IMG/VR virus record: IMGVR_UViG_3300031712_000131
Span: 1 to 31,751 of that record
DNA length: 31,751 bases
Direction: 5' to 3' (one strand)
Origin: a virus
The position numbers and the translations under genes were made by a program. Below the pieces are notes generated by a model that did not search any database, was not told the DNA's origin, and worked only from the letters and a program-made list of their open reading frames with translations. Below, one piece after another: positions 2,177 through 29,374 of the stretch (position 1 is its first letter; every line of letters starts with the position of its first letter).

Positions 2177-2184
2177 GTAGTAAC

Positions 2185-2265: not shown

Positions 2266-2270
2266 AGTGG

Positions 2271-2344: not shown

Positions 2345-2345
2345 G

Positions 2346-2500: not shown

Positions 2501-2503
2501 TGG

Positions 2504-2576: not shown

Positions 2577-2589
2577 ATGAAACACTAAG

Positions 2590-2932: not shown

Positions 2933-3004
2933 TTCCGACACCTGGATTCGAACCAGGATAACGGGCTTCAAAGGCCCGCGCCCTAACCGTTGGACGATGT
3001 CGGA
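2933..3004 (-). tRNA. tRNA-Gln (TTG)
   Basis: Acceptor TCCGACA/TGTCGGA, anticodon stem CGGGC/GCCCG with loop CTTTGAA (anticodon TTG), T-loop TTCGAAT, discriminator A, encoded CCA at 2930-2932. Its 5' part overlaps the end of the HNH reading frame. Confidence 0.93.
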
Positions 3005-3669
3005 TCAAAAACTGAGTGAGCCTGGAGGGAGTTGAACCCGTCAACCTTCGGATTAAGAGTCCGCTGCGCTACCAATTGCGCCACAAGCCCGTGTCTATTC
3101 CAAGTGATACCTATCTTATGAAGCTTCTCTCTAACTGTCTTTGAGTGGCACCCCAACTTAGTAGCTATCTGACTAGGGGTCATAGTATGAAGCATCTCTA
3201 CTAACTCATCTGAACTTGGCCACACAAGTGTCTCACGACACTTCTTACTACAGTAAACTTGACCTGTACTTGGGCGAGCATAGAATAACCCACCACAAGT
3301 CTTACAAGTATGAGGTACTTTTGGATTTGTATGCCGAATTGGAATTTGCGATCTGACAGAATGCTCTAACTTAGCGTGGTGCTCACTGATTATCTTACCG
3401 TGCTCTTCTCGATGACAGTTGGAACACAGCAAGACACATTTATCCAACTCTAACCTCAACACTTCCCAAGCCCTGTGATTTCTAGCCACTGTCCAGTCCT
3501 TCTGGGATGGATCAGTGTGGTGGAACTCCAAAGCACCTAGGAATTTTGAGTAACCGCAAACCTGGCAACAACCTCCTTTGTATTCAACAGCTCTTCGCTT
3601 CAAGTCATGGTTTCGTTTGCTTAACTTCAGGGTAGTGTAGTCAGAGTGTAGTTGGCGCTCTCGCTTCAT
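2983..3669 (-). CDS. HNH endonuclease whose frame runs through tRNA-Lys
   Basis: A 228-residue HNH nuclease. C35-x2-C38, LEFHHTD (H50, H51) and LCSNCHREEH (C82, C85, H86, H90) form the zinc-braced HNH fold at residues 30-92. A second Cys cluster (C122-x2-C125, C140-x3-C144) and a helix-turn-helix (about 154-188) probably bind DNA. From residue G194, exactly at the first base of tRNA-Lys(CTT), the frame translates the tRNA and ends only inside tRNA-Gln, so the last 35 residues are read from tRNA sequence. The true protein may end this way or a stop may have been lost. The ATG has no Shine-Dalgarno, but GGTGTA ends 10 nt upstream. Likely a homing endonuclease of the tRNA cluster. Confidence 0.82.
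   Translation of the reverse strand: MKRERQLHSDYTTLKLSKRNHDLKRRAVEYKGGCCQVCGYSKFLGALEFHHTDPSQKDWTVARNHRAWEVLRLELDKCVLLCSNCHREEHGKIISEHHAKLEHSVRSQIPIRHTNPKVPHTCKTCGGLFYARPSTGQVYCSKKCRETLVWPSSDELVEMLHTMTPSQIATKLGCHSKTVREKLHKIGITWNRHGLVAQLVAQRTLNPKVDGFNSLQAHSVFDPTSSNG
3017..3090 (-). tRNA. tRNA-Lys (CTT)
   Basis: Acceptor GGGCTTG/CAGGCTC, D-stem GCGC, anticodon loop CTCTTAA (anticodon CTT), T-loop TTCAACT with a weak T-stem, discriminator A. It lies wholly inside the HNH reading frame. Confidence 0.9.
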
Positions 3670-3679
3670 ACAAGGTACC

Positions 3680-3685
3680 TACACC
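3680..3685 (-). promoter_or_regulatory. GGTGTA start-proximal motif
   Basis: GGTGTA on the minus strand, exactly 10 nt before the HNH ATG at 3669. No Shine-Dalgarno lies between. Confidence 0.5.
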
Positions 3686-3715
3686 AAAGAAGATTAATCG
3701 ATTGTTTTAACTCAG

Positions 3716-3788
3716 TGGGCTCGGGGAGCAATGATCTCCCAACCTTGCGGTTAAAGGCCGCTTGCTCTGCCAATTGAGCTACGAACCC
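3716..3788 (-). tRNA. tRNA-Lys (TTT)
   Basis: Acceptor GGGTTCG/CGAGCCC, D-stem GCTC/GAGC, anticodon loop CCTTTAA (anticodon TTT), T-arm GGGAG-ATCATTG-CTCCC. The T-loop begins with A instead of T, which is unusual. Confidence 0.88.
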
Positions 3789-3863
3789 TCGCTTTCTGCT
3801 TTTAGTTGCCCGCTCCCGGGCTCGCGTTTGATGAACATGATGAGTACCTTTCTAGTGTCTTGG

Positions 3864-3948
3864 TGGTGGCTGGTGGATTTGAACCACTCCTCCCGAAGGA
3901 AACAGATTTACAGTCTGCCGCAACTCGCCTGATTGCTAATCAACCACC
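3864..3948 (-). tRNA. tRNA-Tyr (GTA)
   Basis: An 85-nt class II tRNA: acceptor GGTGGTT/AGCCACC, anticodon arm CAGA-CTGTAAA-TCTG (anticodon GTA), long variable arm, T-loop TTCAAAT, discriminator A, encoded CCA at 3861-3863. It is the first tRNA of the cluster in transcription order. Confidence 0.92.
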
Positions 3949-11156: not shown

Positions 11157-11216
11157 CAATCAACCAGATGTTTGTAACTGGGTCTCTTAAATGCCGGTTA
11201 CACACCCCATTAAATC

Positions 11217-11222
11217 GGTGTA
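11217..11222 (+). promoter_or_regulatory. GGTGTA start-proximal motif
   Basis: GGTGTA exactly 10 nt before the ATG at 11233, the start that also gives the expected dCTP deaminase length. No Shine-Dalgarno. Confidence 0.5.
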
Positions 11223-11232
11223 CTTGAATCCT

Positions 11233-11787
11233 ATGCAACAAGGTATTCTGTCGGGGAAAGAGATTGAAATGGAGACTCATCTCGGTGAGATCGACATAAG
11301 TCCGTTCGAGGTTTCTCAATTAAACCCAGCCTCCTATGACCTCACACTTGGCGATGGAATCACAGTGTACAATAAGGTCTGGAAGAGCGGTAGTTACTTG
11401 GACCCCAAGGTGGACAACCCAACGAACTCCTTCAAGATGGGTCCTGAGGGGTTCATACTCAAACCTGGCATCGGATACCTGATGCACACTAGAGAGAGTG
11501 TCGGAACCAACAAGTATGTCCCAGCAATTGACGGTAAGTCAAGCATAGGACGGCTATTTGTGCTGGTTCATGTAACCGCCGGTCTCGGGGACCCTGGTTT
11601 CTATGGTCAGTACACACTCGAAGTACTAGCCACCTATCCTATCAGGTTATACCCAGGGATGAGAATCTGTCAAATACGATTTTTCACCATTCGTGGTGAA
11701 GTTGATCTTTACAAGGGGCATTATCAAGGTGATAATGCCAAAGGCGCGGTAGCGTCACGTGCTTACGAACAGTTTGGTGACAAATGA
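11233..11787 (+). CDS. dcd: dCTP deaminase family protein
   Basis: A 184-residue trimeric-fold nucleotide enzyme. NPASYDLTLGD, DGKSSIGR, the HVTAGLGDPGFYGQYTLEV block with its catalytic Glu, and the late YQG/GAVASR segment are those of dCTP deaminase, which makes dUTP for thymidylate synthesis. The related dUTPases lack the TLE order seen here, but a bifunctional enzyme cannot be excluded. The family normally begins near MQQGILSGKEI, so I chose ATG 11233; the longer frame from 11191 adds 14 residues. Its TGA overlaps the peptide deformylase ATG (ATGA). Confidence 0.93.
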   Translation: MQQGILSGKEIEMETHLGEIDISPFEVSQLNPASYDLTLGDGITVYNKVWKSGSYLDPKVDNPTNSFKMGPEGFILKPGIGYLMHTRESVGTNKYVPAIDGKSSIGRLFVLVHVTAGLGDPGFYGQYTLEVLATYPIRLYPGMRICQIRFFTIRGEVDLYKGHYQGDNAKGAVASRAYEQFGDK

Positions 11788-12434
11788 TACGAGATCACAT
11801 AGCCATTGCCTACTCAAATGCTCTAGAACAGGAATCTGCTAAAGGATCTGAGGAGATCACCGGAATTAGCCCGCTGAAGATGGTCTACTACCCTAGCGAT
11901 ATCCTCAATCAGGTCTGTGTTCCCGTAGAAGAGGTCACTGAGGAGATCAAGCAGCTGGCGCGAGACATGCTCTTGACCATGATGTTAGAGGGTGGGGTAG
12001 GTCTAGCGGCCCCCCAGGTTGGGAAGAGCATCCGAATGTTCGTGGTCGACGTCCGGTGGCCAGAGGACTTGGAACGTTCTGACCCTCATATCTTCATCAA
12101 CCCAGAGTTGGTCCTACCCGAAGGAAAAGAACCGGTCATGAGCCGGGAGGGCTGTCTGTCCTTCCCCGGTGGTAGCGCAAAGATGCCTCGCTACGAGACC
12201 ATCAAGGTGAAGTACTTAGATGGTGAGGGATTCCCCACTGAAATCGAGGCTGAGGACTTCTTTGCCAAAGCGATTCAACACGAGATGGATCACTTGGACG
12301 GTAAGACCATTCAGGGGGCGATATCAACCCTCGACATGATGACGGTTCGGAAGAACATTCTGGCCAAGTCTAGACAACACAAGCGAGAGGCTAAACCTCA
12401 TCATCACCAGAAAAACGGGCGCAAACATTTCTAA
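11784..12434 (+). CDS. def: peptide deformylase
   Basis: A 216-residue peptide deformylase, which removes the N-formyl group from nascent proteins. All three motifs are present: GVGLAAPQVG (71-80), EGCLS (122-126, Cys124 binds metal) and QHEMDHLDG (His166, Glu167, His170). A 35-residue N-terminal extension and a His/Lys-rich tail (KPHHHQKNGRKH) are additions to the core. Coupled to dcd by ATGA. Phage deformylases probably speed maturation of virus proteins or of photosystem/host proteins; here an initiator-like tRNA and Pth2 are also present. The 3' end overlaps the convergent gene by 44 nt. Confidence 0.97.
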   Translation: MIRDHIAIAYSNALEQESAKGSEEITGISPLKMVYYPSDILNQVCVPVEEVTEEIKQLARDMLLTMMLEGGVGLAAPQVGKSIRMFVVDVRWPEDLERSDPHIFINPELVLPEGKEPVMSREGCLSFPGGSAKMPRYETIKVKYLDGEGFPTEIEAEDFFAKAIQHEMDHLDGKTIQGAISTLDMMTVRKNILAKSRQHKREAKPHHHQKNGRKHF

Positions 12435-12654
12435 CTAGTTGGTGCTCTGCAGCTACCACAGGGTCCTTGTGCTCATGCCAGATCTTGTAGAGCCCCATCA
12501 CCTTGTTTTGCTTCCGTCCCTTGGGGATCGGTTCAATCTCAATGGTTGGGTTTCCGTGCTTGTCTTGCCCGAATGAGACAACGCGACCACGGTGGTTTTT
12601 CCATCGGCCATAGAGAATAACATCTCCAAGGTTGAAGTACGCACTGAGCTTCAT
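12391..12654 (-). CDS. small hypothetical protein, KOW/SH3-like
   Basis: An 87-residue protein. FNLGDVILYGRWKNHRGRVV reads like a small beta-barrel (KOW/SH3-like) that could bind nucleic acid, followed by IEIEPIPKGRKQNKVMGLYKIW. The start ATG 12654 follows GGTAGTAACCA. It overlaps the peptide deformylase end by 44 nt, convergent. Stop TAG. I recall similar small phage proteins, but without a known function. Confidence 0.65.
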   Translation of the reverse strand: MKLSAYFNLGDVILYGRWKNHRGRVVSFGQDKHGNPTIEIEPIPKGRKQNKVMGLYKIWHEHKDPVVAAEHQLVRNVCARFSGDDEV

Positions 12655-12741
12655 TGGTTACTACCATAGCTAGTACGTCAAAACTTTATTGGGAGTCCTG
12701 AGGTATGGGCGCTGATAGAGCACTCATACGGCAGTCATGGT

Positions 12742-14148
12742 ATGGCTGCGTCTCCGCACGTTCTAGTTCAAGATGGCACTGGTCCGCTAATCAACCCTGA
12801 TCACACAGGAGATCCGAACTACCCAGCTGGAGTAAACGTCACTCCAGGCAACACGATATCCATCACGCTAGTAAGTGCTGATAGCGTTGGGCAGTGGACT
12901 CTCAGGGTAGTAGGTACTGATGAGGATACTGTTGTCCCAGTCCTCGCTAACGTAGACCCCATAACAGGTATCGTCTCGACCCCCGGTAGCACGGTAACCT
13001 TCACGGTTCCTGCAGGGGTAGCTGGTCGAGCCTACATCTTCCAGTCCATAGCCAACAACGGGGGTCCGGCATACACGACGACGTTTGGGATCTATACCCT
13101 GACAGCTAGCTCATTTCGTGTAGGCGCCCTAGGAGAACGCTTCGAGAATGATCCGGTCTTTGGTTGGGCTAGGACCCTCAATCAATTCATCAAGCGTGGC
13201 GGGGGTGGTGGCGGCTCGAGTGTAGAGGCGTTTATTGATGGGGGTTCGATTGGAAATTTCACAAAGCTCAATATTACTGGTACTACTACCTTCAACACCC
13301 CAACCCTGACTTCAAGTGAGCTCAACCTACCTATAAGCCCGGCAGGGACTTGGTCTGCAGTTGGTAACACGGGGACTGATGAACTACAACCCAGTGAGAT
13401 CTTTCCATACCAAAACTTTGGGCTTTTCTTTGACGCTTCACTTGGTTCAGGTAACCCACTTGGGATAATGACCGATAGGATGACGGTCAAAGCAGTCTCC
13501 TTAGTTGCCTCCCCTGATCCAGGTAATCCATCACACTTTGATGGGGTAACTCTTAGTAACGCTGATCTAGTGTTACTATCTAGAGGGTCGTTAGGGTCAA
13601 ACACTATTTACTGGTATATTGGTGGTAGTTTAGTACCTTACCCATTTATTCCCTGGATGACTACAGGGTTTCAGGTTTATGTTAGAGAAGGTAGCGTTTA
13701 TGCTGGAAAAACGTTTAGGCAGACAGCTGTAGCGGATCCAGCACCCGTAGCTTCTTTCCATAACCAGGTTTGGAAGTGTGAACTTGGTCCTGATATCGCG
13801 CCACCACTCACCACCTATAATGGTACTGGCGGCGGGGTAACCTGGCATATTATCGACACTATTGTAGGTCCACCAGCAGATGGATACGACTTGCTTGTAG
13901 TAACTGACAACATTGCTACTAATACAGGTACTGGGGATAACCTCCAGAGGGAGCGTGGGGTGGTCACCTATCACCGCGCCGGAGGAACCCTATCTCTGTC
14001 TGATGATAGTCGATCTCTTACCTCAGCCACCTACTTCAGACAGGTGATTAATGGGAACTCGGTGCAACTCCAGGTGGGTCAGCAAGCATCCGGTAATCAC
14101 TACAGCTTTAGGGTTCGAGCTTGGTTCGAGTACGTGAGGGCACTCTAA
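12742..14148 (+). CDS. virion-type structural protein (tail fibre or decoration)
   Basis: A 468-residue protein rich in Gly, Thr, Ser and Val with a low charge, like phage fibre or decoration proteins. The first about 120 residues form an Ig-like beta domain (NTISITLVSADSVGQWTLRV; STVTFTVPAGVAGRAYIF). A helix (GWARTLNQFIKR) then a six-glycine hinge precede a beta-rich region to the C-terminus (YSFRVRAWFEYVRAL). No lytic or glycosidase motif is seen. The Shine-Dalgarno is weak. Its TAA overlaps the next ATG (TAATG), so it is co-translated with the propeller protein and probably joins the same structure. Confidence 0.7.
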   Translation: MAASPHVLVQDGTGPLINPDHTGDPNYPAGVNVTPGNTISITLVSADSVGQWTLRVVGTDEDTVVPVLANVDPITGIVSTPGSTVTFTVPAGVAGRAYIFQSIANNGGPAYTTTFGIYTLTASSFRVGALGERFENDPVFGWARTLNQFIKRGGGGGGSSVEAFIDGGSIGNFTKLNITGTTTFNTPTLTSSELNLPISPAGTWSAVGNTGTDELQPSEIFPYQNFGLFFDASLGSGNPLGIMTDRMTVKAVSLVASPDPGNPSHFDGVTLSNADLVLLSRGSLGSNTIYWYIGGSLVPYPFIPWMTTGFQVYVREGSVYAGKTFRQTAVADPAPVASFHNQVWKCELGPDIAPPLTTYNGTGGGVTWHIIDTIVGPPADGYDLLVVTDNIATNTGTGDNLQRERGVVTYHRAGGTLSLSDDSRSLTSATYFRQVINGNSVQLQVGQQASGNHYSFRVRAWFEYVRAL

Positions 14149-15959
14149 TGAGAACCATTGCACGAGCCCCCGAGTGGGCCTTAGGCAAGCGCCCACTTAT
14201 TGGGGGGCACATGTGGGTCCCTCTTGGCTCAGCAAATCTAGTACCGCGCGTCAACATAGCTACCGGGGCTATTGACAGCACCGTTACCGCTGGTGACAAC
14301 CCCCAAGCGATAGTATGGGATGGTGGATCCTATATGTACTTGGCTGAGGTTGATGGGGATTCAGTTCAAAGAGTTAGGATATCCAGTCTTGCACTAGATA
14401 GTACTACTAACATTGGATCTCAACCGATTGCGCTAGCTAGGGATACTAGCTTCGTGTACGTGGTTGACAATGAAAACACGATTACTCGAATTGCAATTGT
14501 CTCGGGGGTTGTAGACTCTAACATCAACTTCAGTAGTAGTGACGGTGTTCCCAACAAGGTGGCTTGGGATGGCAGCTTCAATATGTGGGTAACTGCCAAC
14601 AATACTAACCCAAACACGAACAAGATTCTGGAAGTATCAGTAGATACTTGGCCTAGTTATTCGTCAGTACATCTGATGAATGCCCCTAATTCATGGGGCG
14701 TTGCACGAGACGGGTCTGGTCACATCTACACAGCAAACTTTGGGCAAGGGACGGTCTCTAGAATCATTGCTTCTACTGGAGTTATTGACTTAGTCATCCC
14801 TGTTGGGATATCTCCAATTGATATCGCGTGGGATGGTGGGGCCCACATGTACACAGTGGACCAGGATGGTTCAGTCTACAGGATCCTGATCTCAACAGGA
14901 GTTGTTGATCTGATCATCCCTGTTGGTTCTAATCCATATAGGGTTGCGTGGGACGGAGGGGCCCACATGTATGTCACTAACAATGGCACCAACACTGTAT
15001 CTAGAATCCTGATCTCGAGCGGAGCTGTCGATGCGACCATCTCCCTGGGGTCAGGATTTCCAACTGGGGTTGCTTGGGATGGCGGCCTCTACATGTACGT
15101 ATCCATGGATAGTACAAACGTAGCTAGGAGGATTCTAATCTCTTCTGGAGTAGTAAGTGATCTCATTAGTGTTGGTAGTGAACCGGTTGATATTGCATGG
15201 GACGGTGGACTCTACATGTATGTCGCTAGTCAGAACGACAACACAGTTACCAGGATAGCAATAGCAGATCTGAGTACTACTACCATAAGCAGTGCTGAAA
15301 CTAACCCATTCGGAATTGAATGGGATGGTGGCTCATACATGTATGTTGTTGGTCGTGGTGGGAACACTGCTCATAGGATCCAGATCGCAACAGGCGCTCT
15401 ACTTGGATCCGCAATTACACTTGGGAACTCCCCTCGTGCTATCGCTTGGGACGGTGTGTCCCACATGTTTGCGGTCAATAGTAGCGATGGAACAGTGTCT
15501 AGCGTGGACACTACAACCGCAACAGTCAACCTGACTATCCCTCTATTAAACGACTTTAAGGGAGTTGCTTGGGACGGTGCGGACCACATGTATGTGGTTA
15601 GCTCGTTATCCAATCAAGTAATCCGAATCAGTCTGACGAGTAACAATGTCGATGCTATGATCTTCGTAGGGAGTAGCCCGAATAAAATAGCGTGGGATGG
15701 GGCGGACCACATGTATGTCACTAATTCCGGTGACGGAACTGTATCACTCATAGAGATCTCTTCAGGGACAGTTGACTCAACTATCAGTGTCGGGACAACT
15801 CCAGACGAGGTTGCCTGGGACGGTGCGGACCACATGTATGTGAACAACAAGGGTAGCAACAATATCTCGCGCATCCTGATCTCCTCAGGGACAGTGGATG
15901 CTACCATTAGTGTGGCAGGTATCCCGAGCGGTCTTGCAGGGGATGGCCCACTTCGATAG
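14148..15959 (+). CDS. 14-repeat YVTN/NHL-like beta-propeller protein
   Basis: A 603-residue protein made almost wholly of about 41-residue repeats with consensus (I/V)AWDGxxHMYVxNxxxxTVxRIxISSGxVDxTIxVGxxP. Thirteen clear units run from about residue 50, each 40-47 residues. An N-terminal unit lacks only the WDG (GGHMWVPLG...) and a GDG stub ends the protein. Fourteen units fit two seven-bladed propellers. The last three full units all begin WDGADHMYV, which suggests recent duplication. YVTN/NHL propellers bind ligands or proteins; here a receptor-binding or adhesin role is likely. ATG 14148 overlaps the preceding TAA. Stop TAG. Confidence 0.85.
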   Translation: MRTIARAPEWALGKRPLIGGHMWVPLGSANLVPRVNIATGAIDSTVTAGDNPQAIVWDGGSYMYLAEVDGDSVQRVRISSLALDSTTNIGSQPIALARDTSFVYVVDNENTITRIAIVSGVVDSNINFSSSDGVPNKVAWDGSFNMWVTANNTNPNTNKILEVSVDTWPSYSSVHLMNAPNSWGVARDGSGHIYTANFGQGTVSRIIASTGVIDLVIPVGISPIDIAWDGGAHMYTVDQDGSVYRILISTGVVDLIIPVGSNPYRVAWDGGAHMYVTNNGTNTVSRILISSGAVDATISLGSGFPTGVAWDGGLYMYVSMDSTNVARRILISSGVVSDLISVGSEPVDIAWDGGLYMYVASQNDNTVTRIAIADLSTTTISSAETNPFGIEWDGGSYMYVVGRGGNTAHRIQIATGALLGSAITLGNSPRAIAWDGVSHMFAVNSSDGTVSSVDTTTATVNLTIPLLNDFKGVAWDGADHMYVVSSLSNQVIRISLTSNNVDAMIFVGSSPNKIAWDGADHMYVTNSGDGTVSLIEISSGTVDSTISVGTTPDEVAWDGADHMYVNNKGSNNISRILISSGTVDATISVAGIPSGLAGDGPLR

Positions 15960-16799: not shown

Positions 16800-18416
16800 T
16801 CAGAGTTCAACTTGATTGATGATGTCTACCCACTGGTTCTTGCCGGAACCAGTGACAAAATCACTGATCATGCTGAAAACCTGATCAGAGAACCCACCGA
16901 TACCAAAAGTATCAGATCGGCTTACAACCTGATTCGTGTTGTGAGGTGCGAGATCCAAGCAGACCAACTTGGCATTGGGGTTCCTACACTTCAGTAAGTC
17001 CCATTGCCCTTGCATTTGAGTCGCCCCTGTGATCCCATGATTACCAGTCCAAGACTCGTAATCCGAGACGAAGATGACCACGTCAACCTTGGCGGCCTCT
17101 GCATTGAGCAAAGCCAAAGGTTTAGCACAATCAGTTGAACCACCACCAACGGAGGCTAAGATCTTGGTATTCTGCATGACACTGTTGCCAGCATGCACCT
17201 TGACCGGGACTACTCGACCCTCGAAGGCGATGAGTCTAGCCCGCGGGTTCCTTCTGAGGATGGACGAACCAATCAACGAACCCACATCGATGCTCATGAC
17301 CTTTGTAGTGGAACCCTTTCGAGAACCAGTTACAGGGCTTGTGGACATCGACCCAGACACGTCGACACAGATGACTACGTTCTGCCCATCGAAGGCAGGA
17401 ACGTTCATTGTAGCTAGTTCAAGAGCTTCCTCAAGAGCTACAATGATCTTGTTCGGCATCTGTTCAAAGTCGTCATCATTGGGCTTTGAACCACGGAAGG
17501 TGATGCTCCGATCCGTAACCGCCTTGTAGGTCATCATGATCTGGTATGGAAAGACGTGAGCCTTTTCGATCAGATCCTTGTTATGTAGTTTGGCTGCAAT
17601 CAAGTTGACCATCTCAGGGTCCGCAAGAACTCCGTGACGAGCGAACGTATTGAGATTCTTGAAGGTCTGAGGCCAAGTTGCCTTGGCGGCTACCGCCTTC
17701 CAATCATCAAGACTCAACTTAAGTCCCAATAGCATCTCGAAGGGTGCATTAGGAACCTCACCCACCGGGGACACCCGGAAGGCTTCATAAGCCGCTACTA
17801 GCGCCGGGAGAGACTCAGCCGTAACGAAGTCCTCACCGTCGAAGAAACCCTTATCCTTGCCCGCCAGGTGAGCATAGAGAGCAGACCTGGTCCTAGACGT
17901 CGGGCGCACCCGAGCCACCTTCACCACGTCACCCAAGGTCGGGTTGTTACCGACCGAGTTGAAGAATATTTGGTCGTCAGTCCTAGAGTCGAACCACTGG
18001 GCAATGACCTTTCGCAGCCGGTGCGAGGAAGCGTTCCTCTTACCAAACTTCCCAGACCGAATGATCTGAGCAAAGTTGCGCAACATCTTACCGTTGCTGA
18101 CTACGCGCGGGAAGACCTTCACGCAGAGCTCAGGGTTACGAACAGCTAAGTTGGCCAGGAGGGCCGCCGGCATGTCCTTCATGTACCCAGTCGTATGGGC
18201 ATAAACCGCTAGCTTAGCCACGAACTCAGGATCAGACTTCCCGACTAGGTCGAGAACCTGCTCTGCCTGTGACTCAGCAGTTGTATAGAAGGTACTGTTA
18301 AAACAACCAGTTACAGCTAGTTGTGCCAGGGCATTCTCCGGCGCCATAGCATACGCATCCCCACCAGCATAATTGCTCGCATTCGGGTTCAAACCGACGA
18401 TATTATTCTTGGCCAC
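16800..18416 (-). CDS. rsr: Ro60-like TROVE/vWA RNA-binding protein
   Basis: A 538-residue protein with the whole Ro60 layout. A TROVE HEAT-repeat ring fills residues about 20-340 (AHTTGYMKDMPAALLANLAV is typical). A von Willebrand A domain follows with an intact MIDAS (CVDVSGSMS, residues 352-358, and GGGSTD later). Ro60 proteins bind misfolded small RNAs in the ring and Y RNAs on the outer surface, and in bacteria work with PNPase in RNA quality control. I chose GTG 18416 because GGAGG lies 5 nt upstream; ATG 18437 has no spacing for a Shine-Dalgarno. A 7-bp hairpin lies just upstream. Divergent from the ADP-ribosylglycohydrolase gene. No standard Y RNA adjoins it. Confidence 0.95.
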   Translation of the reverse strand: MAKNNIVGLNPNASNYAGGDAYAMAPENALAQLAVTGCFNSTFYTTAESQAEQVLDLVGKSDPEFVAKLAVYAHTTGYMKDMPAALLANLAVRNPELCVKVFPRVVSNGKMLRNFAQIIRSGKFGKRNASSHRLRKVIAQWFDSRTDDQIFFNSVGNNPTLGDVVKVARVRPTSRTRSALYAHLAGKDKGFFDGEDFVTAESLPALVAAYEAFRVSPVGEVPNAPFEMLLGLKLSLDDWKAVAAKATWPQTFKNLNTFARHGVLADPEMVNLIAAKLHNKDLIEKAHVFPYQIMMTYKAVTDRSITFRGSKPNDDDFEQMPNKIIVALEEALELATMNVPAFDGQNVVICVDVSGSMSTSPVTGSRKGSTTKVMSIDVGSLIGSSILRRNPRARLIAFEGRVVPVKVHAGNSVMQNTKILASVGGGSTDCAKPLALLNAEAAKVDVVIFVSDYESWTGNHGITGATQMQGQWDLLKCRNPNAKLVCLDLAPHNTNQVVSRSDTFGIGGFSDQVFSMISDFVTGSGKNQWVDIINQVEL

Positions 18417-18438
18417 GGTGGCCTCCATTTCTAGCATT

Positions 18439-18524: not shown

Positions 18525-18557
18525 GACATGAAGTCTCTGAGGGGACTTCATGTCCCC
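18525..18557. promoter_or_regulatory. competing hairpins between divergent Ro60 and ADP-ribosylglycohydrolase genes
   Basis: GACATGAAGTC (18525-18535) is exactly complementary to GACTTCATGTC (18544-18554), an 11-bp stem. The right arm can instead form GGGGAC-TTCAT-GTCCCC (18541-18557). The element sits between two outward-facing GGTGTA copies, so it may be an operator or a terminator/antiterminator. Confidence 0.55.
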
Positions 18558-18575: not shown

Positions 18576-19496
18576 ATGGTTAGTGATCCGGCACCTCTAG
18601 TAGGTGAGGCTGTGGCAGATGCTCTTGGAATGCCCTTCGAAACACGGCTTGCGAGCGATCCTATGCTCCTAAGTTGGAGGGGAGACTACTTGCCAAGTGA
18701 GTATCATCAGCTCACCCCTGGCCAATGGACTGATGATACTATGATGGCGAAGATGCTTACAGAATCCCTGTACATCTGTGGGGGTTTTTACCCGCGCGAT
18801 GTCGCCAACCGGTATCTCCACTGGTACATCGCCGGGGATACTCGGGGGATGGGTAAGACCACCAAAGCCTCACTTCAACGCTTGAAGGAGGGTTTTCGCT
18901 GGACAGATAGTGGGATTGATGGCGCCGAAGGCAATGGTACCGCAATGCGGGCGGCCCCCATGGGAGCATTTTACCATGATGATCCGCTGACGGTATCCGA
19001 GTTTGCAAGGATGGAGTCTAGGATCACCCATAAGTCAGTGGAAGCTCGAGAGGGTTCAGCAGCAGTTGCCTTGATGGTTGCTTTCATCTGGCAGGGGGTA
19101 CCAAAGTTTGATCTTATTGAAGCTACCTTGGATTTTCTGAGCAACTCCAAGATCAAAGACAAGCTCATCATACTCGGAAAGACCAAAGACCGACTTTCCC
19201 TACCGGAGGCATTCAGTGTCTTTGGAACCAAGTCTCATGTAACCCAAACGGTACCCTCAGCGGCAGCCGCCTTCATGCTCACTGATTCATACGAGGATGC
19301 TGTCATGGCCGCCATCAGAGCGGGTGGGGACACAGACACGACAGCTGCTATCGCCGGAGCAATGGCCGGCTCCTACTATGGGTTCGAAGCTATCCCTAAG
19401 AAGTTCAAGCTCTCACTGGAGAGAATGGATCACCTGCACAACTTAGATAACCATATTGGGGTAGGCCCAAATACAACGGTCATGTGGAAACTCTGA
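18576..19496 (+). CDS. ADP-ribosylglycohydrolase (DraG-like)
   Basis: A 306-residue all-helical hydrolase of the DraG/ARH family, which removes ADP-ribose from proteins or nucleic acids using two Mg ions. Metal ligands are in WTDDT (51-55), GNGTAMR (119-125) and GGDTDTTAAIAGA (250-262). VADALGMPFETR near the N-terminus is also typical. A short unstructured start (MVSDPAPL) precedes it. Divergent from Ro60; its TGA is 1 nt from the 3' end of the suppressor tRNA on the other strand. In a phage it may reverse host ADP-ribosylation defence or control a phage target. A macrodomain gene follows 2.3 kb later. Confidence 0.95.
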   Translation: MVSDPAPLVGEAVADALGMPFETRLASDPMLLSWRGDYLPSEYHQLTPGQWTDDTMMAKMLTESLYICGGFYPRDVANRYLHWYIAGDTRGMGKTTKASLQRLKEGFRWTDSGIDGAEGNGTAMRAAPMGAFYHDDPLTVSEFARMESRITHKSVEAREGSAAVALMVAFIWQGVPKFDLIEATLDFLSNSKIKDKLIILGKTKDRLSLPEAFSVFGTKSHVTQTVPSAAAAFMLTDSYEDAVMAAIRAGGDTDTTAAIAGAMAGSYYGFEAIPKKFKLSLERMDHLHNLDNHIGVGPNTTVMWKL

Positions 19497-19497
19497 G

Positions 19498-19569
19498 CGC
19501 TTCCGGAGGGGTTCGAACCCACGACCAATGAGGTTAGAATTCACTGCTCTACCGCTGAGCTACGGAAGC
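19498..19569 (-). tRNA. amber-suppressor tRNA (CTA)
   Basis: A complete cloverleaf: acceptor GCTTCCG/CGGAAGC (7 perfect pairs), TA at 8-9, D-arm GCTC-AGCGGTA-GAGC with GG, anticodon stem GTGAA/CTCAT (A-C mismatch at 31-39), loop TTCTAAC, variable TGGTC, T-arm GTGGG-TTCGAAC-CCCTC, discriminator G, no CCA. Position 33 is T, 34-36 are CTA and 37 is A, so the anticodon reads UAG. Reading it as TCT (Arg) would break the stem. The amino acid it carries cannot be told. It overlaps the end of the RHH gene by 10 nt and stands alone, outside the cluster. Confidence 0.85.
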
Positions 19570-19751
19570 TTGGTATCACTATCAGGTGGATCAGTTACAC
19601 CGGGAAGATTCTTGATCTTTGATCTCGCTATCCTCCAGGCTTGAACGACAACCCACGAGACGGATCGATCAAGGCGTACAGCCTCCTCACGAACCTCGTG
19701 GTACATATCCACAGGGAAGTAGAGACTCTGTTTGCAATTGGTCACCGTCAT
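19560..19751 (-). CDS. small ribbon-helix-helix-like DNA-binding protein
   Basis: A 63-residue protein: KQSLYFPVDMYHEVREEAVRL then SWVVVQAWRIARSKI match the strand-helix-helix of RHH proteins, close to a small family I associate with Myxococcota genomes. It would bind DNA as a dimer. ATG 19751 is preceded by TAGTTGAGT, the same leader as the virion gene at 31085. It follows the Pth2 gene's TAG directly and in frame, so amber readthrough would join them. Its own TAG stop is made of bases 8-10 of the suppressor tRNA. Confidence 0.72.
   Translation of the reverse strand: MTVTNCKQSLYFPVDMYHEVREEAVRLDRSVSWVVVQAWRIARSKIKNLPGVTDPPDSDTKLP
19595..19600 (-). promoter_or_regulatory. GGTGTA motif upstream of the suppressor tRNA
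   Basis: CCGGTGTA on the minus strand, 25 nt before the 5' end of the suppressor tRNA and inside the RHH gene. It could start a short tRNA precursor. Confidence 0.4.
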
Positions 19752-19757
19752 ACTCAA

Positions 19758-20102
19758 CTATAGCCTAAGAGCCAATTGAATGTTACGCAAAAGTGGTTTG
19801 GCTTTCGGTTCGAAGGCCACCGCAGTCAATTCGTCAAGTCTGTCTGGCTCTCTAAACTCCGAGATCATAAACCCTTTACGTCTAGCTTTGTGGGCCAAGG
19901 CGCTCAAACTCTCCTCAGTCGGAACTGACAGTAAAGCCAGGGTATTTGAGCTTGAGTGCCAACTCAAAGCACCTTCTTTATGCTGCATTAGGTACTCAGT
20001 CAGGGCATGTGCAGCCTGGACAGCTTGTTGAGCAGGTGATAGATCCTCACGAGTTACAAGGTAAAGTTTCTGCGGGGTAGTAGTTTCCATGGAAGACAAC
20101 AT
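19758..20102 (-). CDS. pth2: peptidyl-tRNA hydrolase 2 (Pth2) family protein
   Basis: A 114-residue Pth2-fold protein: KLYLVTREDLSPAQQAVQAAHAL (the family's first strand and helix), then ALLSVPTEESLSALAHKARR and ISEFREPDRLDELTAVAFEP. Pth2 frees tRNA from stalled peptidyl-tRNA, and is usual in archaea and eukaryotes but also occurs in some bacteria and phages. A shorter form from ATG 20090 is equally possible. It overlaps the divergent zinc-ribbon gene by 14 nt. It stops at TAG directly in frame with the RHH gene. The nearby suppressor tRNA and peptide deformylase fit a translation-support set. Confidence 0.88.
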   Translation of the reverse strand: MLSSMETTTPQKLYLVTREDLSPAQQAVQAAHALTEYLMQHKEGALSWHSSSNTLALLSVPTEESLSALAHKARRKGFMISEFREPDRLDELTAVAFEPKAKPLLRNIQLALRL

Positions 20103-20304
20103 CCGTCCGAGAGGGACCGTTGAACTTGAATGCTCGAAGTGTCATTGGGCCTCCTGGTTCGACCCACTTCATCCGAGCGTGATTGAAGCGAGTCGAACCG
20201 GAGTACACGTGTGTGATTCGTGCTTGGGTAAGCCTGAGATCACAGCCAAGCACGAAGATCAGACGAGTGGATCAGGGTCTTCAGGAACCTCATCATCCTC
20301 GTAG
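20089..20304 (+). CDS. small zinc-ribbon protein (uncertain)
   Basis: A 71-residue frame with two Cys pairs (ECSKCHW at 14-20; VCDSCLG at 41-47), the spacing of a zinc ribbon. The Ser/Gly tail (SGSGSSGTSSSS) is antisense to the acidic end of the convergent gene and may be an artefact of overlap. The start lies inside the Pth2 start region. The paired Cys motifs favour a real gene, but it could be spurious. Confidence 0.5.
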   Translation: MEDNIRPRGTVELECSKCHWASWFDPLHPSVIEASRTGVHVCDSCLGKPEITAKHEDQTSGSGSSGTSSSS

Positions 20305-20729
20305 GCAGCCTGAACCCGAGCATCTTTGTCCACTTGGAAGTGCATCGAGATTGCCCCGATAACCACCTCAGGGATCCCAGCCGCTTGGAGCTTCTCCCTC
20401 CACTTAGGGTAGGGCCTGTCACCCCCTAGGTAATGCTTTTCCCCAACTTGAAAGCTCGGTGGGTCAGAGTATACATTACCCTCCGGAGTTTCCAAGTAAG
20501 GCCAAACCTCCAAAGGACTGTCAGAGCAACACCCGCAGTTATGTCGAAGGTCAAACCTTTCAACTTTCGAGTTCACTGATACTGAGTAGTAGGCCACCTT
20601 GTTCCATCGACCCACATGCTTTTGTAGATCTGGAAACATAGCAGATAGCCGTACTAGCCTCTCTGCCTCAGCCGTCTTCTCGACGGCTTCCTTGTTGAGC
20701 TTGTCTAGCTCTACTTGGATGCTGGACAC
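20259..20729 (-). CDS. hypothetical protein
   Basis: A 156-residue protein from a GTG that overlaps the upstream TAG (TAGTG). A helical start (SIQVELDKLNKEAVEKTAEAERL) precedes a domain with a Cys cluster (HNCGCCSDSPLEVWPYLETPEG) that may bind zinc, and an acidic C-terminus. Not recognised. Coupled to the gene upstream. Confidence 0.65.
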   Translation of the reverse strand: MSSIQVELDKLNKEAVEKTAEAERLVRLSAMFPDLQKHVGRWNKVAYYSVSVNSKVERFDLRHNCGCCSDSPLEVWPYLETPEGNVYSDPPSFQVGEKHYLGGDRPYPKWREKLQAAGIPEVVIGAISMHFQVDKDARVQAAYEDDEVPEDPDPLV

Positions 20730-21196
20730 TAGGCAGCCACCTCAATGAGTTGGGGAGCAGCACCACCCTTGACCCACTCGTTGATCTCGTCAGCTCCAAT
20801 CGGACACCTGGTGTCCGAAAAGTACCCTTCGAGGATACAGGCCATCCCGTAGGTACTCGGATAGTTATCCTCTTTGCATTTAGCTTCAACACTCTTGTAC
20901 GCGCGCCCTCGAAGCATAGCCCAAAGGAGCAAGTAATCACGAGTCGTGAAGCCAAGGCTCCTTTTCTTCGTCCAGAGACGGTTTCGCTCATCGCCGGTCT
21001 CGGGGCGAAGGTAAGGCTTTAGGGATCGACTTCCGTTGACCCTCTGCCCCTGCTCGTTCTTGGCGGAGCGAAGACGCTGCACCTCGGGTAACGATCCATC
21101 TTTCCACTTGAGGCTTTGGATCTTTCTACTGATCTCCAAAGTGTCTTGGATACTCTTGACTAAATCTGTTCGTAGTTTCTTTATCACGGTATGCAT
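20729..21196 (-). CDS. hypothetical protein
   Basis: A 155-residue protein with the best Shine-Dalgarno in the window, AGGAGG 8 nt before the ATG. The N-terminal third is helical and basic; the rest (FTTRDYLLLWAMLRGRAYKSVEAKC...STYGMACILEGYFSD) looks globular. Not recognised. Followed by a coupled gene (TAGTG). No GGTGTA precedes it, in keeping with use of a normal leader. Confidence 0.7.
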   Translation of the reverse strand: MHTVIKKLRTDLVKSIQDTLEISRKIQSLKWKDGSLPEVQRLRSAKNEQGQRVNGSRSLKPYLRPETGDERNRLWTKKRSLGFTTRDYLLLWAMLRGRAYKSVEAKCKEDNYPSTYGMACILEGYFSDTRCPIGADEINEWVKGGAAPQLIEVAA

Positions 21197-21341
21197 CGCA
21201 CTAACCTCCTAGTCGTTTCAAAGTTATTTGAAAAACGAACATGAGGCGGCGGGCCGCGAGCTGAAGAAATCTACGTATACTTCGACATGCCACCCAGGAT
21301 AATCAGTTGTCCTAGTTCTGTCAACGGTGTATCTTCCCTCG
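21197..21341. other. divergent intergenic region
   Basis: Starts of two opposite genes flank it. GGTGTA lies at 21326-21331 (plus). I see no further hairpin or repeat. Confidence 0.4.
21326..21331 (+). promoter_or_regulatory. GGTGTA start-proximal motif
   Basis: GGTGTA exactly 10 nt before the ATG at 21342. No Shine-Dalgarno. The longer GTG frame from 21327 starts within the motif, so ATG 21342 is preferred. Confidence 0.5.
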
Positions 21342-21758
21342 ATGTGTCGTTTCTTCAAACTCGAGGGAAAGACGGCGGTCCCCGTCAGCTCTATCGAATG
21401 CCTTGAGTGGATTGTACAAGATCCTGATCATGGAGTTCGAAGAGTACGAAAGGATGAGTATCTTTCTGGGACCGAGGAGATCCTTGTATCAACTACTTTC
21501 CTCATGGGCATCAATCACCGCTGGATGGACGGAGCCGAGCCACTCCTATTTGAGACCATGGTATTCGGAGGAACTATGGATCAGGCCCAGTGGCGTTATT
21601 CGACATGGGAGAAGGCCGAGGCAGGCCACCAAGAAGTACTTGACCAGCTGCTCCGAGAGATGCCACACCTGAAGAGTAAGACTGGGTCCCCTCGCGAGTG
21701 CGTCCCCACCCGACACGAGAGAGTCATTCGTAACTTATGCCACCCAGAGAAAAAATAG
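21342..21758 (+). CDS. conserved phage hypothetical protein
   Basis: A 138-residue protein. The stretch ILVSTTFLMGINHRW ... EPLLFETMVFGG ... WRYSTWEKAEAGHQEVL resembles a small protein family common in actinophages and other tailed phages, whose function is unknown. It looks cytosolic. The stop is TAG. Confidence 0.7.
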   Translation: MCRFFKLEGKTAVPVSSIECLEWIVQDPDHGVRRVRKDEYLSGTEEILVSTTFLMGINHRWMDGAEPLLFETMVFGGTMDQAQWRYSTWEKAEAGHQEVLDQLLREMPHLKSKTGSPRECVPTRHERVIRNLCHPEKK

Positions 21759-21842
21759 TCATAGGTTATAGAAAGTTACTCGGCTTGACGTTGATAGCTT
21801 GCGCGGAATAGAAACGTAGAGTACCAAGAGATCGGAGGCGCA

Positions 21843-22343
21843 TTGATCACTTACTTGCAGGGTGACGCTACTCGTCCACAACCGAGTGAATCTAGAATCA
21901 TTATGCATATTTGCAATGATAGGGGCGGTTGGGGAAAGGGCTTCGTGTTGGCGTTATCCAAGCGCTGGACCGAACCGGAAGGGCAGTACCGGAAGTGGTA
22001 CAAGGAAGGGCACAACACTAGATCTGGTGACTTCGCCCTCGGTAATGTTGGCTGGGCTTTGGTCGGTCCTGGTCTCTGGGTCGCCAACATGATTGCCCAG
22101 GTTGGTTATGGGAGGGCTGGAAGTCTACAGCACGCGGTTGAAGAGGACCCAGGTCCATCACCGCTTCGATACGATGCACTTCGAACTTGCTTGACCAAGG
22201 TAGCAGAGAGCGCTCGCTCGAAGGGCTCCACTATTCACGCCCCGAGGATTGGGTGTGGACTCGCTGGTGGAAAGTGGGATCAGGTAGAACCTCTGATCCA
22301 AGAGACAATGGGTGATCTTCCAGTCTTCATCTACGACCTATGA
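21843..22343 (+). CDS. macrodomain (ADP-ribose-binding) protein
   Basis: A 166-residue single macrodomain. YLQGDAT (residues 4-10) and HICNDRGGWGKGF (22-34, with Asn25 at the ribose) form the ADP-ribose pocket; RIGCGLAGGKW (about 136-146) is the second glycine-rich loop. The pattern is nearest to the ADP-ribose-1''-phosphate phosphatase/deacylase branch, some of which remove ADP-ribose from nucleic acids or proteins. The start is TTG with GGAGG 4 nt upstream; no ATG is available nearby. Its TGA overlaps the next ATG (ATGA), which couples it to the SLOG protein. Confidence 0.92.
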   Translation: MITYLQGDATRPQPSESRIIMHICNDRGGWGKGFVLALSKRWTEPEGQYRKWYKEGHNTRSGDFALGNVGWALVGPGLWVANMIAQVGYGRAGSLQHAVEEDPGPSPLRYDALRTCLTKVAESARSKGSTIHAPRIGCGLAGGKWDQVEPLIQETMGDLPVFIYDL

Positions 22344-22798
22344 AATCGGCTGCTATCACGGGTCACCGTACTATTGGCCCCAAGAGTACGAAACGGGTGT
22401 GGACTGCAGCCGCTACCTTGCTTATGAACCTAAGTATTGACGAAGTCTACCTTGGTGGTGCAAGTGGGGTGGACACAGAATTTCTCAAGGCAGCCCTTCA
22501 CTACCGAGAAGGTATCAGGCCTAAACTCATCGTAGTGGTTCCGGACACCGTCGATAGACAACCCCTCTCGACTAGGAACTGGACTCGACGCGCAGACTTG
22601 GTCATCGAACTTCAGGAACCAATTACTGAGGACGATCACTACTTGAGCTACAAGAAGCGGAATGAGTACCTAGTGGACCGAGGGACCTTTGTAGTAGCGT
22701 TCTTCAACGGCAACTTCAAGTCAGGTACTGGGCAAGCCATCACCTACGCAAGAAAAGCCGGGAAGACCGTGTACACTATCCCTGTTTCGTTAGCGTGA
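22340..22798 (+). CDS. SLOG-superfamily (YpsA/LOG-like) Rossmann protein
   Basis: A 152-residue protein: AAITGHRTIGP at the N-terminus, LGGASGVDTEFLKAAL, then ADLVIELQEP and FVVAFFNGNFKSGTGQAI make the SLOG/DprA-like Rossmann fold that binds nucleotide or ADP-ribose-type ligands. Closest in feel to YpsA and short LOG proteins. It is coupled to the macrodomain gene (ATGA), which suggests a shared ligand. It might be a sensor, hydrolase or sponge of such signals. The 3' end overlaps the convergent gene by 23 nt. Confidence 0.82.
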   Translation: MKSAAITGHRTIGPKSTKRVWTAAATLLMNLSIDEVYLGGASGVDTEFLKAALHYREGIRPKLIVVVPDTVDRQPLSTRNWTRRADLVIELQEPITEDDHYLSYKKRNEYLVDRGTFVVAFFNGNFKSGTGQAITYARKAGKTVYTIPVSLA

Positions 22799-26744: not shown

Positions 26745-27392
26745 ATGTCTGACTTTTTCAAGTGGTATAATCTGATCTTCTACATCCCGCTGGCAATCGG
26801 AATACTATCCGTACTTGGAGTCGGGTTTTCAGGTGCTGGTCACGACGTAGGGGTTCATGGGGACATCCACGGTGACTTTCACCTAGACGGGGATCATGAC
26901 GCTGAAGGGGATCAGGATGGGGAGGGACAGGGGAGTTGGTTACTTGGCTTCCTAGGGTTTGGGAGGGTACCACTTGCCATCTCATTCATGTCTCTGTCCT
27001 TGATATTTGCAGGTACTGGGATCTGCATGAACACGATACTCGGAGCACTCATCAAGGTGTGGAGTGGGTTCGCTCTTATCTCAGTAGCCGTTGCCTCCAT
27101 CACGATGTTCTTTGGTACTGCCTTCGTGAGTCGAACCGTGGGTAAGTTCATGCCCACCACTGAAACCGATTCAGTGAAGAAGGTAGACCTCATTGGGTGT
27201 ATTGGAACTGTCACCCTAGCTTGTGACAGTACTGGTGGGGTAGCTCAAATCACGAATAGGAGTGGGGACCGCTACCAAATCCAATGCAGGTCGGACAAGC
27301 CTATTGCCAAAGGCACTCCAATTCTAACCTTCGAATACAACGAAGCTCTTGATGTGTACACAATAGTTGTTGATCCCACCATTGGTGGGTGA
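26745..27392 (+). CDS. YqiJ/NfeD-like membrane protein, flotillin partner
   Basis: A 215-residue membrane protein. Helices lie near residues 9-30, 73-97 and 103-125, and a C-terminal OB-like domain (VDLIGCIGTVTLACDSTGG ... TFEYNEALDVYTIVV) follows, the YqiJ/NfeD layout. The loop between helices 1 and 2 (about 32-61) is very rich in His, Asp and Gly (GDIHGDFHLDGDHDAEGD) and could bind metal. YqiJ proteins pair with YqiK flotillins, as here with the next gene 44 nt on. In the cell it would sit in the inner membrane. Confidence 0.82.
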   Translation: MSDFFKWYNLIFYIPLAIGILSVLGVGFSGAGHDVGVHGDIHGDFHLDGDHDAEGDQDGEGQGSWLLGFLGFGRVPLAISFMSLSLIFAGTGICMNTILGALIKVWSGFALISVAVASITMFFGTAFVSRTVGKFMPTTETDSVKKVDLIGCIGTVTLACDSTGGVAQITNRSGDRYQIQCRSDKPIAKGTPILTFEYNEALDVYTIVVDPTIGG

Positions 27393-27402
27393 GTTTATTA
27401 AA

Positions 27403-27418
27403 CCCTGCTCTCGCAGGG
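27403..27418 (+). promoter_or_regulatory. hairpin between YqiJ-like and flotillin genes
   Basis: CCCTGC-TCTC-GCAGGG, right after a second hairpin CCCACC/GGTGGG at the end of the YqiJ-like gene. GGGGGAAAG and an ATG followed at once by TAA (27424) lie between it and the flotillin ATG. May tune the ratio of the two proteins. Confidence 0.4.
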
Positions 27419-27436
27419 GGAAAGATGTAAATCAAA

Positions 27437-29374
27437 ATGGGTATAGGTCTATTTTTTCTGTTGCTCTTTGGGATAGCTCTAATTGCCAGTCCAATAGCAG
27501 TAAACACATTCACAACGCACCATGTACCGGGGGTGTCCTCCGTCATCATGACTATCAGCGGAATCACGCTGGTTCTGATCTGCGTAACACTTCTCGTAAT
27601 CACCAAGTTGTATGTCAAAACAAAGGCAAGTGAGGCCTTTGTCAAGACTGGCATGGGCGGGTTGAAGGTCATTCGAGATGGTGGTCAGGTTATCCTCCCT
27701 GTCATCCACCAGATAGTTCGAGTGTCCCTTGAGACCATCAAGTTGCCAGTACAACGTATTGGGGCCGATGCTCTCATCACCAGTGATAAGTTGCGCGCCG
27801 ACGTCCAAGCTGAGTTCTACGTTCGGGTACAAGCCTCGGATGAGGATATCAAAGCAGCAGCCCGTTCCCTTGGTGACAAGATGAGCGAAGTCAATGTGAA
27901 TTCTCAACAACAAAGAAAGTCTGACGGACGGTCCTATGAGTCGAGTGTAGCGGCCCTCATTGAAGACAAGCTGGTATCAGCTCTGCGCACGAGTGCTGCC
28001 AAGAAGACCCTAGAACAACTAAACAGCGACCGAGATGAGTTCTTGAAGGAAGTTGTGGAGGGGGTCACTGCGGACTTGAAGCACAACGGGTTCCTCCTTG
28101 AAACAGTCACCATCTCCAAGTTGGATCAGACCGATATTACCAACCTGAAAAATGATAACATCTTCGACGCCCAAGGGCTGAGAACCATTGCGGAAATCAC
28201 TCAGAAGAACCTCACCGAGAGGAACACCATCGTCCGCACCGGTGAGCAAGCTCGAAAGGATCAGGACGTTCAGACACGAACTCAGATCCTAGAGCTGGAG
28301 AGGAAGCAAGCTGAGGCTGAAGCGAATCAGTCGGCTCAAGTACTCTCAATTCAAGCTGAGCAGGAACGCATTGGTAAGCAAAGCCAGATCGAAGCTCAAC
28401 GGAAAATCGATGTGGCTGCAACCGAGAACGCACAACAGACAATCCTTGCCAAGGTTTCTCAAGAACAGGCCGTCGAGGTTGCCAAGCGTCAGCAACAGCA
28501 AGCCATCGTGGTTGCTGAACAGAAGGTGGAAGTCGCCAAGCGGGACCAACAGAAAGCCATTGCTGGATCTGAAGCCGAGAAAGCCAAGGCGGAAGCCCTC
28601 TTAGCGGATGCTGAAGCTGACCGACAGAAGGCTCGTCAGAATATCCAAACGGTAGAGGTAGTTGCTGCAGCAGACCGAGAGAAGCAGAAGGCAGTTATTG
28701 CGGCTCAAGGTGAAGCTGAGAAGAACTATGTAACCGCCCAGAGGACCGCTGATGCCGGCGCCTATCGGACCATGAAAGAGGCTGAGGCGCGCAAAGCATC
28801 GGCTGATGCGGATGCTGAAGCTACAACCAAGAAGGCAACAGCAGATTCGAAAGCAGCAGAACTTCAAGCCGCTGGTAACAAGGCAACCCTCATTGCCCAA
28901 GCTGACGGTGAGAAAGCCAAGCTGCTAGCTGCTGCTGAGGGTCAGAAAGCTCTGGCCATGGTCCCTGTCGAGGTCAAGGCTCGCGAGGTCCAGATCGACA
29001 AGCAACGAGTTGAAGAGGTCCTCAAGCCTGAACTAGAAGCTCGTGCAGCCAACGGTGAGGCGGCTCAGAACTTCGAGTTGGCCAAACTCCAAATCACCCA
29101 AGAAGCCCTGGTCAGAATCGAGTCGGCCAAAGCGACTGCCCAGTTCTACGGAAAGATCCAAGCCAACGTCTACGGTACCCCTGAGGACGTCGCCAAGATG
29201 TCCCAGCACTTCAACGCGGGCATGGGCCTCTCCCAGGCCTTCGGTGGGTTCTTGGCCGGCGCAGACGCCTCCACGGTCGAGACTGTTCAGAAGACCATGG
29301 GCGCAGTCAACGAGATCGCATCCTCAGTTGGCAAGATGATAGGTAAGAAGACTGACAAGCCAGCTACAACCTAG
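27437..29374 (+). CDS. flotillin-like SPFH protein (YqiK type)
   Basis: A 645-residue flotillin. Two hydrophobic segments (residues 2-24 and 38-58) anchor it, followed by an SPFH/band-7 domain (about 65-260: FVKTGMGGLKVIRDGGQVILP, LRADVQAEFYVRV). A very long Ala/Glu/Lys/Gln coiled coil fills about 265-560 and a Gly-rich end (MSQHFNAGMGLSQAFGGFLAG) follows. Flotillins form large membrane cages or microdomains. It is paired with the YqiJ-like gene and closed by a strong terminator. It ends in tandem TAG TAG stops. In a phage it could reorganise the host membrane. Confidence 0.93.
   Translation: MGIGLFFLLLFGIALIASPIAVNTFTTHHVPGVSSVIMTISGITLVLICVTLLVITKLYVKTKASEAFVKTGMGGLKVIRDGGQVILPVIHQIVRVSLETIKLPVQRIGADALITSDKLRADVQAEFYVRVQASDEDIKAAARSLGDKMSEVNVNSQQQRKSDGRSYESSVAALIEDKLVSALRTSAAKKTLEQLNSDRDEFLKEVVEGVTADLKHNGFLLETVTISKLDQTDITNLKNDNIFDAQGLRTIAEITQKNLTERNTIVRTGEQARKDQDVQTRTQILELERKQAEAEANQSAQVLSIQAEQERIGKQSQIEAQRKIDVAATENAQQTILAKVSQEQAVEVAKRQQQQAIVVAEQKVEVAKRDQQKAIAGSEAEKAKAEALLADAEADRQKARQNIQTVEVVAAADREKQKAVIAAQGEAEKNYVTAQRTADAGAYRTMKEAEARKASADADAEATTKKATADSKAAELQAAGNKATLIAQADGEKAKLLAAAEGQKALAMVPVEVKAREVQIDKQRVEEVLKPELEARAANGEAAQNFELAKLQITQEALVRIESAKATAQFYGKIQANVYGTPEDVAKMSQHFNAGMGLSQAFGGFLAGADASTVETVQKTMGAVNEIASSVGKMIGKKTDKPATT

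Follow-up and report, generated by a model that had tools for sequence, protein, structure and literature searches.

The DNA analysed here is a viral stretch of 31,751 nucleotides (record IMGVR_UViG_3300031712_000131), referred to in its whole length as the window, and all positions follow its numbering. Within 4.2 kb of its plus strand it carries genes for an ADP-ribosylglycohydrolase (ARH), a macrodomain protein and a SLOG protein, which had been proposed in an earlier note and were confirmed in position, strand and span, as was the ATGA junction between the latter two. The window very likely derives from the genome of a huge tailed phage, most likely of about the size of the 512,571-base phage contig L003, as judged from shared gene order. 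No near DNA match to it was obtained in the phage collection. The features in question are as follows.

18576..19496, plus strand: ADP-ribosylglycohydrolase (ARH/DraG family), 306 amino acids, motifs WTDDT, GGDTDTT, and DALGMPFE intact
21843..22343, plus strand: macrodomain of the SCO6735/BT1257 type (ALC1-like), 166 amino acids, TTG start
22340..22798, plus strand: YpsA-like SLOG protein, 152 amino acids, without the LOG catalytic glutamate
22340..22343, plus strand: ATGA stop/start overlap of the macrodomain and SLOG genes, kept in the related contig L014

The ARH matches the Pfam family ADP_ribosyl_GH over residues 8-275 (E 1.6e-66, 225.4 bits, cut-off 26.2), and its best relatives in the PDB are MJ1187 (1t5j, 1.2e-33), followed by 2cwc, 6dre, Lmo0067, ARH3, and DraG. 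The two-metal site of this family is marked by TDD near the N terminus and GGDTDT near the C terminus. Both motifs are intact in the window protein, and TDD as well as GGDxDT were found in 11 out of 11 aligned sequences. Family and metal motifs are shared with MJ1187, DraG, Tri1, and ARH3; unlike Tri1 and DRAG, however, the window ARH falls far below both NCBIfam equivalog cut-offs (107.1 vs 490 bits for Tri1, 94.8 vs 337 bits for DRAG). PADLOC returned no match for ARH or SLOG; its sole result for the macrodomain was a weak match to DarG.

The macrodomain stays below the Pfam Macro cut-off (17.4 vs 22 bits) and matches PHROG 335 at 1.7e-30. In the PDB, it is closest to 5e3b (4.7e-43) and to BT1257 (2fg1 and 2afc, 5.6e-41), while Poa1p (1e-9), chain 5m3i (0.0078), and TARG1 (0.011) are far weaker matches. 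According to PMC9411070, 5E3B is SCO6735 of Streptomyces coelicolor, which cleaves thymidine-linked ADP-ribose off DNA and whose active-site positions are His24, Val25 (Ile in some homologues), Asn27, Lys34, Gln85, Gly126, and Gly128. The window protein and SCO6735 agree at 75 of 151 aligned residues (about 50% identity), and the former keeps His24, Asn27, Lys34, Gln85, Gly126, and Gly128, with Ile in place of Val25; H22, I23, N25, Q86, and G139 are the equivalents of His24, Val25, Asn27, Gln85, and Gly128, respectively, and K32 that of Lys34. In a family alignment of 87 rows, consisting of the window and 86 loci of which some are near-copies, His24 is present in 84, Asn27 in 84, Gln85 in 85, and both glycines in all 87 rows, and the Lys34 position is occupied by Lys in only 9. 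Gln85 separates SCO6735-type macrodomains from those of TARG1 and DarG with a catalytic lysine (PMC9411070); this lysine is Lys84 or Lys80, and the window protein, as aligned with SCO6735, shows the SCO6735-type Gln86. The NCBIfam DarG model gave 24.2 vs 250 bits, and only the end of its macro part matched. Due to the SCO6735 match and the kept active-site residues, it is plausible that the window macrodomain acts as a thymidine-DNA hydrolase lacking one of the DNA-related lysines. Unlike SCO6735, it is encoded by a huge phage, in overlap with a SLOG gene, and has a longer loop after Gln86. In the literature covered (open-licence PMC papers), no assay of an SCO6735-type phage macrodomain was found.

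The SLOG protein gives weak matches at the sequence level. Pfam DprA was matched below the cut-off (E 2.5e-5, 24 vs 29.6 bits), the NCBIfam DprA model gave 18.4 vs 191 bits, and a sequence search of the PDB yielded no notable match. Unlike members of the YpsA family (PF06908, 2nx2), the protein itself gives no Pfam YpsA match at E 0.1. A sequence link to this family is provided by two relatives, L028 and L029, which match Pfam YpsA at 1.5e-16 and 6.6e-19 and are found by a three-sequence SLOG profile at 1.5e-8 and 7.2e-7, respectively. A structure model built from a 41-row alignment (predicted local distance difference test score, pLDDT, 92.3; predicted template modelling score 0.88) replaced an earlier one from three sequences (pLDDT 53.4, no fold match at E 0.001). 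Foldseek ranked YpsA 2nx2 first (1.3e-7) and DprA second for this model. With VIA-align, Z scores were 16.6 for YpsA (root mean square deviation 3.0, 148 aligned), 16.3 for ShosA (2.1, 138), 15.7 for DprA (2.1, 139), 13.4 for LOG (2.8, 129), and 12.1 for ThsA (3.0, 120). Since scores within 1 Z were counted as tied, what places the protein in the YpsA clade is its relationship in sequence to L028 and L029; the model lets us confidently predict a SLOG fold of YpsA-like type. LOG-type nucleosidases carry the motif PGGxGTxxE with its glutamate. The window protein reads SGTGQAI at residues 128-134 and lacks a glutamate there, so that these residues favour a binding or sensing role over nucleosidase activity. 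A pattern scan for bacterial relatives of the SLOG protein confirmed none of 299 stretches.

The start of the SLOG gene and the stop of the macrodomain gene share the ATGA, and the same junction occurs in L014, which begins inside the tail of the macrodomain gene and keeps the genes downstream. Ahead of the macrodomain TTG start stands GGAGG, which probably serves as its ribosome site. The interval between ARH and macrodomain genes contains a tRNA gene with CTA anticodon, three minus-strand open reading frames (ORFs; 19758, which encodes PTH2, and the unassigned 20259 and 20729) and one unassigned plus-strand ORF (21327). Three neighbours of the ARH gene that recur in L003 are listed below.

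16800..18437, minus strand: Ro60/TROVE protein with vWA domain, divergent from the ARH gene; order kept in L003
19497..19569, minus strand: tRNA with CTA anticodon, immediately after ARH; L003 has one in the same slot
19758..20102, minus strand: peptidyl-tRNA hydrolase PTH2; order kept in L003

L003 is the closest large relative and matches the window in gene order: two large proteins encoded at 12742-15959, Ro60, ARH (61%), and PTH2 are kept in order, and so are the 20729 and 21327 ORFs, SLOG (64%), and the 22776 ORF. In L008, a macrodomain relative (41%) directly follows an ARH gene. Similar clusters occur in related huge phages. In G003 (447.8 kb), genes for a macrodomain, a small ORF, NADAR, two unknown proteins, a phosphoesterase, and a YpsA SLOG are grouped within about 5.2 kb (L204, 1773-6976), about 22 kb from an ARH gene, and in G012 NADAR, R2K ATP-grasp, phosphoesterase, and SLOG genes occupy about 6 kb. 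Among seven ARH-bearing contigs longer than 200 kb, NADAR was present in five and a Pfam Macro match (E 0.01) in four (G002, G003, G008, and G010); in case of the ARH-bearing G007, a window-type macrodomain was missed by Pfam.

Grouping of the three genes was assessed on contigs longer than 200 kb, of which there were 23 among 80 macrodomain loci; 22 were tested, G010 with its already known ARH being omitted. ARH occurred in 7 of the 22, the only reference value being the approximately 5% of jumbo phages that a published survey gives for a different set of phages (PMC9503650), and SLOG was found by profile in 7, including G017 and G025 with weak partial matches. For the seven contigs chosen only for their macrodomain, the distance between macrodomain and SLOG genes was below that of random placement (combined p 0.022 linear, 0.0055 circular). 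When contigs were treated as circular, ARH and SLOG genes were at most 50 kb apart in 14 out of 16. In the distance tests, the ARH nearer to SLOG was used where a contig had two of them (G012, G039, G042, and G047), which favours nearness, G037 and G050 were excluded as probable near-duplicates of G036 and G049, G002, G003, and G012 were known beforehand, and gene positions were rounded. Sixteen contigs chosen for a YpsA-like SLOG, by a search that was seeded from two ARH-bearing contigs and is thus partly circular, contained ARH in 11 and a Pfam Macro match in 4 cases. The 141 proteins neighbouring the 80 macrodomain loci included NAMPT (4), SIR2 (3), NADAR (1), and ARH (1), and an SCO6735-type macrodomain profile match lay within about 2.5 kb of 3 SLOG genes out of 80 from phages. 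In huge-phage contigs, a SLOG gene is thus preferentially located close to the macrodomain gene as well as to that for ARH, and the latter two show no such tendency towards each other.

Considering these families and their arrangement, we estimate a probability of roughly 60% that the window stems from a huge tailed phage with an ADP-ribose-processing region that clears host-defence ADP-ribose marks or signals. In this scheme, ADP-ribosylating or NAD-consuming defences of the host would mark DNA, RNA, or protein during infection, or release ADP-ribose signals. The macrodomain, with an active site most like that of the thymidine-DNA hydrolase SCO6735, would hydrolyse ADP-ribose linkages and perhaps reverse DarT-type DNA marks, and the ARH would strip ADP-ribose from other acceptors via its two-metal site. 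The SLOG protein, presumably coupled in translation to the macrodomain, may bind a nucleotide of the ADP-ribose type, serving as a sensor or sponge, rather than act as a LOG-type nucleosidase. The idea is a reasonable one, and Iyer and colleagues predicted such roles in 2022 for the Macro, SLOG, and ARG proteins of phages (PMC9503650), of which pattern the window represents a fresh example. There, phage Macro, SLOG, NADAR, and Nudix proteins are proposed to counter ADP-ribose-based immunity and co-occur more than by chance, DNA ADP-ribosylation by toxin systems is named as a conceivable target, and the shares among jumbo phages are given as 56% for Macro, 31% for SLOG, and about 5% for ARG. 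The window shares with these networks the neighbouring Macro and SLOG genes, a nearby ARG protein, and the proposed role; their grouping of SLOG beside Macro and/or NADAR is seen in the ATGA overlap of both window and L014. Unlike these networks, no NADAR was recognised among the 30 ORFs, out of 39 picked in the window, that were scanned with Pfam. Similar ground is covered for jumbo phages, with TROVE and KptA, in PMC7824862.

Several observations weigh against a clearing region of this kind. Lys89 in the mobile loop of SCO6735, which supports DNA activity (PMC9411070), is not kept and corresponds to Gly90 in the window, where the loop is longer and hard to align. In L003, no macrodomain and no remnant of it were found between the same neighbours. 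The macrodomain-ARH distance is not below random in the seven contigs that contain both (combined p 0.98 linear, 0.96 circular), and the presence of SLOG and of ARH is unassociated in the 22 macrodomain-bearing contigs (3 of 7 vs 4 of 15, Fisher p 0.63). Furthermore, the distance and co-occurrence statistics ignore kinship between contigs. Because L003 holds ARH and SLOG without a macrodomain there, and because the ARH-macrodomain distance is random, one fixed three-gene module was rejected; the genes form a loose regional cluster, separately gained and lost, and not a fixed operon. Of the counter-defence or signal-clearing module suggested by the earlier note, the role thus remains plausible, with the families supported, largely intact catalytic signatures in two of them and similar clusters in related huge phages, whereas the notion of a single unit was given up.

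It is tempting to speculate that many huge phages carry an SCO6735-type eraser of DarT-like thymidine marks and that, in the lineage of the window, the SLOG protein coupled to it detects or retains the ADP-ribose set free, although we consider this more specific version tentative and rather doubtful. If true, the macrodomain would counter DarT by catalysis, in contrast to AdfA and AdfB, which are proposed to inhibit through protein binding; the known anti-DarT factor AdfB, and by hypothesis AdfA, is thought to bind DarT (PMC11481870). In any case, the region offers a concrete candidate for phage enzymes that undo ADP-ribosylation, with a macrodomain whose substrate is predictable since its family has a solved and assayed bacterial relative, and the distance tests show which of the three genes group in huge phages and which do not.

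An unlikely alternative explanation is a clean-up function in a translation and RNA-repair zone, instead of counter-defence, in which macrodomain and ARH would process by-products that arise when the phage repairs RNA, such as the ADP-ribose 1''-phosphate produced through KptA or ADP-ribose attached via phosphate to the ends of RNA. The ARH gene is flanked by Ro60/TROVE, PTH2, and tRNA genes in an order kept in L003, and a KptA/Tpt1 RNA 2'-phosphotransferase (L112; G002, 453368-453853) is present in the closest huge relative (512.6 kb). Poa1p, an ADP-ribose 1''-phosphate phosphatase, is among the weaker PDB matches of the macrodomain, among the 141 neighbours of the macrodomain family are two RlaP, one SAK repair, and three PTH2 proteins, and ARH-like and MacroD enzymes act on phosphate-linked RNA ADP-ribose (PMC11833690). 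However, SCO6735, the nearest characterised relative, is inactive on 5'-phosphate-linked ADP-ribose according to the Results of the same paper, even if its Discussion says otherwise. Moreover, KptA was found in only 1 of 15 contigs, and the relative that carries it lacks a window-type macrodomain at the corresponding place. As a separate observation on the macrodomain neighbourhood, PTH2 (3 of 141) and NAMPT/NAPRTase (4 of 141) recur beside SCO6735-type phage macrodomain genes, these counts being given without a control set.

It is quite improbable that the hydrolases control ADP-ribosylation made by the phage itself, i.e., reverse marks set on host molecules by its own transferase or sirtuin. 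In the Streptomyces phages Annadreamy and Faust (Loccivirinae; L015, L016), a macrodomain gene of the same family overlaps its partner gene, as in the window, with a one-base stop/start overlap to Sir2, and a sirtuin-macrodomain pair is predicted in Streptomyces phages (PMC9503650). There, however, the partner is an upstream Sir2 gene and in the window a downstream SLOG gene, and neither a transferase nor a sirtuin was recognised among the 30 scanned window ORFs. PF01129 gave no hit in 15 contigs, and as its control gave none either, this search is uninformative. The Annadreamy/Faust partner is labelled ADP-ribosyltransferase in one record and is SIR2 by Pfam.

Mere chance neighbourhood of three unrelated accessory genes in a large genome, which would agree with the macrodomain missing at the same place in L003, with the lack of nearness between ARH and macrodomain, and with Macrodomains, SLOG, and NADAR being common in jumbo phages (PMC9503650), is likewise improbable, given the ATGA overlap kept in L014 and the nearness of SLOG to both other genes beyond random.

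An extension of the clearing region to the Nudix hydrolase (25972) and CoaE (24799), which the earlier note had suggested as possible additional members, is not supported. Both genes are present without a specific tie to ADP-ribose, and they were placed outside the set because the former looks MutT-like and the latter is a dephospho-CoA kinase. The Nudix protein best matches the MutT type (3id9, 5.3e-11; two MutT models with 53 and 51 bits, under the cut-off), with a lower 18.5 bits for an ADP-ribose diphosphatase model, and CoaE matches dephospho-CoA kinase in Pfam at 2.1e-50.

Between the divergent Ro60 and ARH genes, a perfect 11-base inverted repeat, GACATGAAGTC, with a loop of 8 is located at 18525-18554; it does not occur in L003 and could be an operator or terminator. 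Relatives of Ro60/TROVE were found in G002, G003, G012, and G017 among 12 contigs searched. A Y RNA partner of Ro60 at 2522-2640 was considered and rejected, since the Rfam YrlA match is weak (21.6 vs 69 bits). The CTA-anticodon tRNA gene beside ARH also occurs in L003 (8932-9004, minus strand), where the tRNA bodies agree at only 35 of 73 positions in an ungapped comparison. An alternative genetic code, suggested by this tRNA, seems unlikely: 12 of the 39 picked ORFs end in TAG, read-through tails are mostly short, and TAG apparently serves as a stop codon. L003 additionally contains a TnpB/Cas12f-like gene (11424-12833, minus strand), inserted between two genes that adjoin in the window. Elsewhere in the window, a minus-strand array of at least 11 tRNA genes spans 12-3945, genes for a dCTP deaminase-like protein and a peptide deformylase overlap by 4 bases at 11191-12434 on the plus strand, and a YqiJ-like membrane protein and an SPFH/Band 7 protein are encoded in tandem at 26745-29374 on the plus strand, an arrangement that is kept in L014.

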